A stretch of 64,000 bases of DNA from contig WGLS01000005.1 in the NCBI GenBank assembly GCA_016125455.1, forward strand, positions 124,001-188,000, written 5' to 3'. Positions 55,169 through 57,895 of this stretch are shown piece after piece (position 1 is the first letter of the stretch; the number at the start of each line of letters is the position of its first letter). Position numbers and translations under genes: made by a program. Source of the DNA: Alphaproteobacteria bacterium (GTDB taxonomy: Bacteria; Pseudomonadota; Alphaproteobacteria; Caulobacterales; Parvularculaceae). Below the pieces are notes generated by a model. The model did not search any database. It saw only the letters and a list, made by a program, of their open reading frames with translations, and had not been told where the DNA came from.

Positions 55169-57499
55169 TCAGGACTGTACCTTGACGTAGGCGCCGGGCG
55201 CATCCTCGATCGGCGCAAGGTCGCCATCACCGGGCGTTCGCGCCCCGGTGCGGCCAGGGCTGACGTCGTCGAGCCAGTCCATCCAGTAACGCCACCATGA
55301 TCCGGGACGCCGTTCGGCGTCCGCTTTCCACTCGTCGAGCGTGGCCGGCAGCGCTCGGCTCACGCTGTGGTGATACTTGTTCTTATCAGGATGATTGATC
55401 ACGCCCGCGATGTGTCCCGAGCCCGCCAGCATATAGACGATCTTTCCCTTGGCCGCGCCATCGGCGAACAGGCGCGCCGTGTTGTATACAGACTGATGGG
55501 GCGCGATGTGGTCGGTCTCGCCTGCCTGGAAAAACATCGGGATGGCGACCTTCTGCAGGTCGAGCCGTTCGCCATTGATGACGAGTTCGCCCTTGGCCAG
55601 CGCGTTCTTCTGGTAGAATTCCCGCAAATAATAGAGATGGACGTTCTTCGGCATGCGCGTCGAATCGGAGTTCCAGAACAACAGGTCGAAGCGCGCCGGG
55701 TCCTTGCCCATCATGTAGTTGTCGATGACGAACTGCCAGATCAGGTCGTTGGAGCGCAGCATGTTGAACGTGGTGGCCATCGCACGTCCTTCGAGCACGC
55801 CGCCTGCGGCGTCCATCTGTCGTTCGATGGAATCGAGCTGCGCGTCGTCGACGAACAGGAGCAGGTCGCCCGCCGCGGAAAAATCCGCCTGAGCGGTCAG
55901 GAACGTGGCCGTCCTGATCCGATCGTCGCCCTTGCGCGCCATGACGCCGAGCGCCGTCGCCAGCATTGTGCCGCCGATGCAATAGCCAATGGCGTCGACG
56001 TCGCGCTCGCCGGTCGCCTTGCCGACTGCCGTAAGCGCCTCGAAGCACCCCTGTTCGATATAGTCCTCGAAGGTCTTGTGGGCGAGCTCCGGTCCGGGGT
56101 TTACCCAAGAGACGACGAAGACCGTGCGGCCCTGGTCGACCATCCATTTGATAAAAGAATTCGACGGTTGCAGGTCGAGGATGTAGAACTTGTTGATCCA
56201 CGGCGGAAAGATCAGGAGAGGGCGCCTGGCGACTTTCTCCGTTGTCGGATCATACTGGATGAGCTGCATGATCTCGTTCTGGAAGACGACTTTTCCAGGC
56301 GTCGTTGCGATGTTCTCGCCGAGCTTGAAATAATCGAGATCCGCCTGGCGAATCGCCAGGTCGCCATGGCCGCGATCGATGTCCTCGAGGAAGTTCCTGA
56401 TGCCCTTCATCAGGTTTTCGCCGCGGCTTTCGATTGTCGCTTCGACCACCTCGGGGTTCAGCATCGGGAAATTCGTCGGCGCCAGCGCGTCGACGAACTG
56501 GCGCGTGAAAAACTCCGCGCGCTTCTTTTCGTGCTCGTCGCTGATGTCGAGCTGTTCGACGGTCGACGTCAGCCATTTTGACGTAATGAGATAGGACTGC
56601 TTGATAAAGTCCAGGACGTAATTCTCCGACCACGCCTTATGTCGAAAGCGTTTGTCGCCGCTGGCGGGTTCGATCGCCGGCCGCGGCGGTTCGCCGGAAA
56701 AGCGTCGCGTCGTGTTCGCGATCAGCTTTGCATAGTCGCCCCATAGTTCGAACTGGCGTTGCAGGACGGTCGCGGGGTCCGAGGCGAAGCCTTCGAGCAT
56801 TTCCTTGTAGGCTTCGCCGATATTCAGAGGGTCAGCCGGGCGCCGGCCCTGGGCGAGTTCGATGATTTCACGGTTCTTGCCGAAAAACTCCGCAATCACG
56901 TCCTGACTCTTGCCCGACACGTCCGCGAGGTACGAAGCAAGCGCGTCGAAGTCCTCGATAATGCTCTCATGCTTGTCGCTGTCTGGCGCAGGCGCTACGG
57001 CGTGGCGTCTTGCGTCGCCGAATGACGATGTCGGGGCGGTCGCTTTTTTACTCGCGATCCCGGCGCCGGCATGTCTTGCAGCGACTGCCGTTGCGGCGGA
57101 CGAAGGCGCGCGCGACGTTCTTTTCGACGCTTTCGCCTCGCTTGCGTTAGCCTTCTTCGCGGCAGTTTTCCTTACCTTGACCTTCTTGGCCGCACGCTTC
57201 GTGGTTGGCGCCTTCGTCGCTGCGGGCTTTTTGGGCGATGGCGTTTGTGGCGTCTCGTCAGACGTCTTGCTTGTCATTTTCGCTTTCGTCGATTTTGCCG
57301 ATGCCTTTGCTGCCGATGCCTTTGCGGGCTGGCGTGCCGGGTTGCCGATGGATGGGGCGGCGCGCGACCTCTTTGGCGACTTGGCCGGTCCCTTCGGCGC
57401 GGGCGGGCCATTCGCTGGCGCGGCTGGCCCATCCGCCGCGTCGCTGGTCTTGCTCGTGCGCTTCGTCCGCGCGGGCGTTGCATCTTCCGCTTGCGTCAT
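55169..57499 (-). CDS. phaC: Class I poly(3-hydroxyalkanoate) synthase with histone-H1-like N-terminal extension
   Basis: 776 residues against ~590 for class I enzymes. The catalytic core begins near residue 176 (SDKHESIIEDFDALASYL) and holds the lipase-like box GYCIGGTML with Cys507, Asp663 in AGETDHIAP and His696 in AGSGHIAGV. The first ~170 residues are almost only Ala, Lys, Pro, Ser, Thr and Arg, with runs such as TTKRAAKKVKVRKTAAKKA, like the C-terminal domains of histone H1 or AlgP and of PHB-granule proteins that bind DNA. It polymerises 3-hydroxybutyryl-CoA on the granule surface. No in-frame start close to the core gives a better ribosome site, so the extension is probably translated. 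Confidence 0.95.
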   Translation of the reverse strand: MTQAEDATPARTKRTSKTSDAADGPAAPANGPPAPKGPAKSPKRSRAAPSIGNPARQPAKASAAKASAKSTKAKMTSKTSDETPQTPSPKKPAATKAPTTKRAAKKVKVRKTAAKKANASEAKASKRTSRAPSSAATAVAARHAGAGIASKKATAPTSSFGDARRHAVAPAPDSDKHESIIEDFDALASYLADVSGKSQDVIAEFFGKNREIIELAQGRRPADPLNIGEAYKEMLEGFASDPATVLQRQFELWGDYAKLIANTTRRFSGEPPRPAIEPASGDKRFRHKAWSENYVLDFIKQSYLITSKWLTSTVEQLDISDEHEKKRAEFFTRQFVDALAPTNFPMLNPEVVEATIESRGENLMKGIRNFLEDIDRGHGDLAIRQADLDYFKLGENIATTPGKVVFQNEIMQLIQYDPTTEKVARRPLLIFPPWINKFYILDLQPSNSFIKWMVDQGRTVFVVSWVNPGPELAHKTFEDYIEQGCFEALTAVGKATGERDVDAIGYCIGGTMLATALGVMARKGDDRIRTATFLTAQADFSAAGDLLLFVDDAQLDSIERQMDAAGGVLEGRAMATTFNMLRSNDLIWQFVIDNYMMGKDPARFDLLFWNSDSTRMPKNVHLYYLREFYQKNALAKGELVINGERLDLQKVAIPMFFQAGETDHIAPHQSVYNTARLFADGAAKGKIVYMLAGSGHIAGVINHPDKNKYHHSVSRALPATLDEWKADAERRPGSWWRYWMDWLDDVSPGRTGARTPGDGDLAPIEDAPGAYVKVQS

Positions 57500-57550
57500 G
57501 TTGTCGATCGCTGGTCAATTGGCTTCGATCAGACTATAGGGCCGCCCTAC
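57500..57550 (+). promoter_or_regulatory. Compact divergent promoter region between phaC and a lipoprotein gene
   Basis: 51 bases separate two divergent starts. TGGTCA(57512)-17 bases-TATAGG(57535) is a possible sigma-70-type promoter for the rightward gene. It has good spacing and a weak -35, and would give a transcript starting only a few bases before ATG 57551. No ribosome-binding site is evident there, consistent with a near-leaderless message. Confidence 0.3.
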
Positions 57551-57895
57551 ATGCGTGCAAAACCATTTATCTTCGCCGCGCTCGTGGTCGTTGCTTCCGC
57601 TGGCTGCGCAAACGCCCAGCGATTCCTGCCGGGCGGCATCATCAAGGTTCGCGACCTCGAGAAGGGCCGTCCCATCAACCAGGATGTCGTCGAAGATATC
57701 ACGAGCAGCGAAAGGTCAGCGCGCAAGGCGTCGTTTCCCCTCCTTCGTGAACAGCCCGCAACGCCTCCAACGGCGAAGGCGGCGTCGGTGGTAAGGGCTG
57801 AGACATCGGATCTCATGACGGAAAAAGCCCGCCTCGAACGGGCCATCGGGGCCGATCGGGAAGCCGCGATCGCAGAACGTCGCGCCGACGATTAA
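57551..57895 (+). CDS. Small secreted protein, probable lipoprotein
   Basis: 114 residues from ATG 57551; the long ORF-track version is antisense to phaC. MRAKPFIFAALVVVASAGCA is a signal peptide with a lipobox-like SAGC. It is followed by NAQRFLPGGIIKVRDLEKGRPINQ and a charged, Ala/Arg/Glu-rich C-terminus that could be helical. I do not recognise the family. It lies 90 bases before an outer-membrane beta-barrel gene, so a joint envelope function is possible. The mature protein would be under 100 residues. Confidence 0.65.
   Translation: MRAKPFIFAALVVVASAGCANAQRFLPGGIIKVRDLEKGRPINQDVVEDITSSERSARKASFPLLREQPATPPTAKAASVVRAETSDLMTEKARLERAIGADREAAIAERRADD

Follow-up and report, generated by a model that had tools for sequence, protein, structure and literature searches.

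A lysine-rich, histone H1-like N-terminal tail on the class I PHB synthase of Parvularculaceae, a candidate nucleoid anchor built into the enzyme

The window, a stretch of 64,000 nucleotides from a Parvularculaceae bacterium (GenBank assembly GCA_016125455.1, contig WGLS01000005.1, positions 124,001 to 188,000), encodes a class I poly(3-hydroxybutyrate) (PHB) synthase, PhaC, whose core is preceded by a long basic tail of histone H1-like composition. We infer that this tail is a disordered, DNA-binding polycation anchoring the synthase and the nascent granule to the nucleoid, and assign this reading a probability of roughly 0.55. Put more broadly, the proposal that the tail fastens synthase and granules to some negatively charged polymer, DNA or another, is probably correct. 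The features of the gene are as follows (coordinates of the window).

57533..57561, minus strand: putative sigma-70-like promoter, TTTGCA-17-TATAGT, 33 nt before the ATG of the tail (judged by recurrence in relatives and by shuffles)
55169..57499, minus strand: phaC, class I PHB synthase, 776 aa, ATG start (TIGR01838, 730.8 bits)
56966..57499, minus strand: N-terminal Lys/Ala/Pro-rich tail, residues 1-178, pI 11.2, net charge +27, predicted disordered
56786..56965, minus strand: conserved amphipathic-helix segment and linker between the tail and the TIGR01838 core, residues 179-238 (IIEDFDALASYLADVSGKSQDVIAEFF...), helix at 174-207
55172..56785, minus strand: class I PhaC core, residues 239-776 (TIGR01838, and phmmer to solved PHA synthases)
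55979..55981, minus strand: catalytic Cys507 (GYCIGG box)
55511..55513, minus strand: catalytic Asp663 (ETDHIAP)
55412..55414, minus strand: catalytic His696 (GSGHIAG)

On its domain content, the 776-aa ORF is a genuine PHB synthase of class I. TIGR01838 matches residues 239-774 above its cut-off (622.65 bits), PF07167 (PhaC_N) matches residues 282-453, and the solved PHA synthases 9knj, 5xav, 5hz2 and 5t6o align across the core in phmmer searches. A preliminary description of this DNA had called the core complete, with Cys507, Asp663 and His696 as the triad; all three residues are intact and invariant across the PhaC alignment, the Cys lying in a lipase-like box. The same description placed the start of the core near residue 176, which fits the first conserved helix (~174-181) but not the catalytic core, since the models begin at residues 239 and 282. 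The C-terminus coincides with the end of the TIGR01838 model (the match runs to residue 774 of 776), leaving no extension of the Cobetia type discussed below. Neighbouring genes encode a UDP-GlcNAc 2-epimerase-type protein, a short ORF, an outer-membrane barrel and a GlpX-like protein, and none of them is a PhaE/PhaR subunit gene adjoining the class I phaC. We read the ORF as this Parvularculaceae bacterium's principal PHB synthase, of class I.

The tail (residues 1-178) contains 46 Ala, 26 Lys, 20 Pro, 20 Ser, 18 Thr and 12 Arg, and its pI and net charge (11.2 and +27) contrast with a pI of 5.2 for the rest of PhaC. Its Lys:Arg ratio (26 to 12) is opposite to the Arg-over-Lys bias of the genome (63% GC; 2.9% Lys and 8.9% Arg in the proteome), and it is not a chance property in this genome, as only two proteins among 402 ORFs (446 kb) reach at least 21% Lys over 100 aa, namely PhaC and a CarD-type protein. 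Residues 1-176 match no Pfam family at E values up to 1, no DNA-binding family of Pfam or NCBIfam matches the tail, and curated H1/HC2-type family profiles give no match either. Because no Pfam or NCBIfam family recognizes the tail, its likeness to H1 and AlgP is compositional: as in H1-like, HC2 and AlgP-type tails, the segment is of low complexity, rich in Lys, Ala and Pro, basic, and predicted to be disordered. AlphaFold places no secondary structure before residue 174, with very low confidence there and a shallow alignment of nine sequences, which weakly suggests that the tail is intrinsically disordered. The low-complexity, H1/AlgP-like tail of ~170 residues first described on this synthase is therefore real in this compositional sense, at ~178 residues.

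Several observations indicate that the tail is translated. The start ATGACGCAAGC (MTQA, MTQAE) and the bases before it are kept across genera, while the tail after the start is not; one family member (L025) uses a GTG start. Relatives beginning with MTQAE show a promoter-like pair of the type TTTTRCAC...CTATAA in the corresponding position, about 30-35 nt upstream, and the count of promoter sites like TTTGCA-17-TATAGT in shuffles was 0.0. The phaC of the window has in-frame alternative starts at ATG75 and GTG194/201, but in 16 of the 32 family members the tail is free of any ATG, GTG or TTG and so offers no start. Given the conserved start, the upstream promoter-like pair and the members lacking internal starts, the tail is translated from a correctly assigned start codon. 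An internal start near the core, the first refuting condition named in the preliminary description, was examined and is ruled out on these same three grounds. A frame error or an antisense ORF as the origin of the tail is likewise ruled out, as tail and PhaC lie in one open frame and the architecture is found in 31 other members.

Within the family of the window (Parvularculaceae, f1), 32 main PhaC genes were readable, and all 32 carry a tail (39-180 aa) with a positive net charge; the conservation among close relatives by which the preliminary description proposed to judge the tail is thus borne out. The tails contain 12-37% Lys (median 21%), with a median Lys/(Lys+Arg) of 0.80 vs. 0.25 in the proteome of the window's genome, and tetrapeptides of the PAKK/AKKA/KPAA type occur 95 times vs. 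26.9±5.9 in composition shuffles. The PhaC cores are 55-80% identical within the family; the tails, by contrast, resist residue-level alignment, and even those of the two members of the genus that could be read do not align reliably. The shortest are 39 aa long with net charges of +2 to +4 (L031, L037). Across the family, then, the tail is conserved as a property (charge and composition) and not as a sequence.

In a tree of 93 PhaC cores, three tail changes suffice, and all 32 f1 synthases fall in a single, fully supported, tailed clade. Elsewhere in the same order, 6 of 6 synthases of f3 have Ala/Lys/Pro-rich tails that are poorer in Lys, one f5 genome (G044) has a tailed PhaC, f2 has no PhaC tail, and in f4 tails are lacking or, at most, weak (L057, L060). 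PhaC paralogues in the same genomes have no comparable tail. Outside the order the tail is sporadic: a class-wide sample of 90 alphaproteobacterial synthases yielded five clear tails (L139, L154, L177, L202, L203) and one weak tail (L195). A class I PhaC of a different alphaproteobacterial family, L154 (G244:C3:1389600-1391500), has a 133-aa N-terminal tail of KPAAK repeats (23% Lys) and is apparently an independent example, stronger than that of the window. A further sequence, L005, is on a contig labelled Bordetella parapertussis (CALQLA020000031.1) and its PhaC groups with alphaproteobacterial synthases; the contig is probably a mislabelled metagenome bin.

We also asked which separate tether proteins the genomes encode. 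PhaM (NF043076) was found by profile search in 0 of 61 genomes of the order, including that of the window, and an NCBIfam scan gave no PhaM match for the window's PhaC; the absence is credible because the same model finds PhaM in 2 of 120 genomes across the phylum. A family-profile search gave no PF05597 (PhaF-type) phasin above threshold in the window's genome, and the window's PhaC has no PF05597 domain, only the tail. PF05597 phasins occur in 10 of the 38 order genomes with a tailed PhaC vs. 14 of the 17 that yielded no tailed class I PhaC; of these 17, four (all f5) have only a PhaC paralogue. We count this complementarity in favor of the tether, but as suggestive, since the contrast follows family lines and so reflects few independent events. 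Tail-less f2 has PhaH-like proteins that combine PF05597 with a C-terminal helix-hairpin-helix (HHH) domain (L219:1414-2250, L240, L241), and f5 genomes without a tailed PhaC have PF05597 proteins with a strong H1-like tail (L209, L210).

PhaH was not found among the HHH matches in the window's genome, and in this survey PhaH-like proteins were seen only in f2. Two of these HHH matches were considered as PhaH and read instead as a wax ester synthase-like protein and as the ribosomal protein bL21 extended by an HHH domain; a third (C37) is weaker. The bL21 form, with a C-terminal Lys/Ala-rich linker and HHH domain, is present in L231, L233 (G000:C4:100205-100852, minus strand) and L235, and it confuses searches for PhaH-like phasins. 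The genome does encode a separate 221-aa PhaE/PhaF/PhaR-like protein with an H1-like tail, KKAATKAATKAATKTAARK (G000:C2:44692-45357), its matches being weak (E 2e-5 to 9e-3); the gene immediately precedes one for a class III-like PhaC (G000:C2:43535-45357), and a nearby Phasin_2 protein begins with MAPTKKTTKKTTAKAAAKRATKK. Given this H1-tailed protein and the start of the Phasin_2 protein, the genome has other candidate tethers besides the synthase tail. The search for separate PhaM or PhaF genes suggested in the preliminary description thus has a divided outcome, with neither PhaM nor PF05597 detected by profile but a separate H1-tailed PhaE/PhaF-like protein present.

These genes belong to a lipid-storage cluster (G000:C2:38602-45357; L111/L112, L078) in which several products bear appendages that look nucleic-acid-binding: the class III-like PhaC is accompanied by the H1-tailed PhaE/PhaF-like protein, by the Phasin_2 protein with its KKTTKKTTAKAAAKRATKK head, and by a 590-aa wax ester synthase/acyltransferase-like protein with an HHH-like C-terminal domain, a likeness read from sequence. 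A CarD/CdnL-type protein (PF02559 and PF21095; 407 aa) is encoded on the contig of the window (G000:C13:262733-263956, minus strand; L109:14733-15956, minus strand). It has an N-terminal H1-like tail of ~200 aa (PAKKAPAAKAAPKKKTAAKAAA...), and no other stretch found in the sampled 446 kb is as rich in Lys. The CarD/CdnL family acts at the transcription machinery.

In the mechanism that we propose, the tail would bind chromosomal DNA through multivalent, sequence-nonspecific, electrostatic contacts. Each nascent granule would present many synthase copies with ~27 positive charges apiece, and granules would start on the nucleoid and travel with it. The built-in tail would do the job of the separate H1-like tails of PhaM and PhaF, or of the helix-hairpin-helix domain of PhaH. 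Two points make DNA the likeliest partner: in PhaM and PhaF, tails of this H1-like kind bind DNA and position PHB granules (PMC9049629, PMC13052382), and in this genome a CarD-type protein bears the same type of tail. We count in favor of the tether that H1-like tails also occur on CarD/CdnL-type and other storage-granule proteins of this genome, and against it the separate H1-tailed PhaE/PhaF-like protein; tails of only 39 aa (net +2 to +4) also seem insufficient to hold the enzyme firmly on DNA by themselves. A wider reading is more tentative and, in our view, somewhat doubtful: that throughout the family the link between granule and chromosome has been transferred to the synthase, so that PHB synthesis would begin on DNA by default, and that more generally the storage-inclusion proteins of this lineage (synthase, phasins, PhaE-like subunit and HHH-tailed wax ester synthase-like protein) carry nucleic-acid-binding appendages.

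Polycations bind RNA and polyphosphate as well as DNA, and the chemistry of the tail does not tell DNA from the other two. The tail might therefore bind another polyanion, chiefly polyphosphate or RNA, and hold the synthase near polyphosphate granules or ribosomes instead of the chromosome. Polyphosphate is the main rival to DNA as partner, given that the KPAA tail of AlgP, the closest compositional analogue, is needed for the spacing of polyphosphate granules (PMC9239181). We nevertheless consider this unlikely: DNA is the partner in both studied H1-tailed PHB proteins (PhaM and PhaF), CarD of the same genome carries such a tail, and AlgP is itself described as DNA-binding.

The tail could instead have no specific partner and be a tolerated or weakly useful disordered extension, free in length, that aids solubility, enzyme spacing on the granule or oligomerization. 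This is conceivable because length and sequence drift freely (a nearly fivefold length range, with no alignable sequence) and the shortest tails have little net charge; most alphaproteobacterial PhaC enzymes work without a tail, and the two short tandem repeats that TRF detects in the tail DNA offer a route for growth. Drift of this kind is hard to square with a positive charge in 32 of 32 members, a preference for Lys over Arg against the genome bias, a motif count above that of shuffles and fixation throughout the family's clade, and the repeats of the window's tail number only two, with two copies each; we therefore hold a neutral extension to be improbable. Least likely by far is a regulatory or assembly module that replaces the activating role of PhaM, for example by binding acidic phasins or promoting synthase dimers, with DNA contact secondary. 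PhaM does also activate PhaC1 of C. necator (PMC9049629) and was found in none of the 61 order genomes, but its Lys-rich PAKKA motifs are credited with nucleoid attachment and not with activation (PMC9049629), and hydrophobic or helical contact sites are absent from the tail. Binding of DNA by the synthase tail thus remains our preferred reading.

Only for a few species is it worked out how PHB granules are placed and passed on to daughter cells, and in each of them a separate protein serves as the tether. A tether apparently built into the synthase allows a one-gene test of nucleoid attachment, and a tailed PhaC would offer a portable, self-anchoring synthase. The preliminary description set a tail on the synthase itself against the known separate DNA-binding phasins. 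The idea is less new than this contrast implied, being already published: PhaC2 of Cobetia/Halomonas sp. SF2003 (2021) has a basic C-terminal extension of ~380 aa with nonspecific matches to the HC2 (H1-like) domain, and this extension has been suggested to anchor the synthase to the nucleoid as a substitute for PhaM (PMC8686332). The N-terminal, family-wide version is new, and we found no published description of an N-terminally tailed Parvularculaceae PhaC in the open-access literature.

Among the closest known systems is Cobetia PhaC2, also a class I enzyme whose own chain is prolonged by a long, basic and disordered stretch resembling H1/HC2 (pI ~10.3 in Cobetia). Its extension is C-terminal, ~380 aa long and found in a gammaproteobacterial genus, whereas the Parvularculaceae tail is N-terminal, 39-180 aa long and fixed family-wide; the two would represent repeated evolution to the same solution at different ends of the enzyme and in different bacterial classes. 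The remaining systems all place the tether on a separate protein. PhaM of Cupriavidus necator has a similar Lys/Pro/Ala tail, whose PAKKA motifs attach PHB granules to the nucleoid, and works with PhaC, but its tail is C-terminal. PhaF of Pseudomonas putida links PHA granules to DNA through a disordered H1-like AAKP tail, which is again C-terminal and sits on a PF05597 phasin. In the related alphaproteobacterium Caulobacter crescentus, granules are tethered to the nucleoid by PhaH (reviewed in PMC13052382), a phasin that uses a helix-hairpin-helix domain in place of a tail. AlgP of Pseudomonas aeruginosa (PMC9239181) has a disordered KPAA-rich tail of similar length and also acts in storage-granule placement, but its tail is C-terminal and the granules are of polyphosphate.
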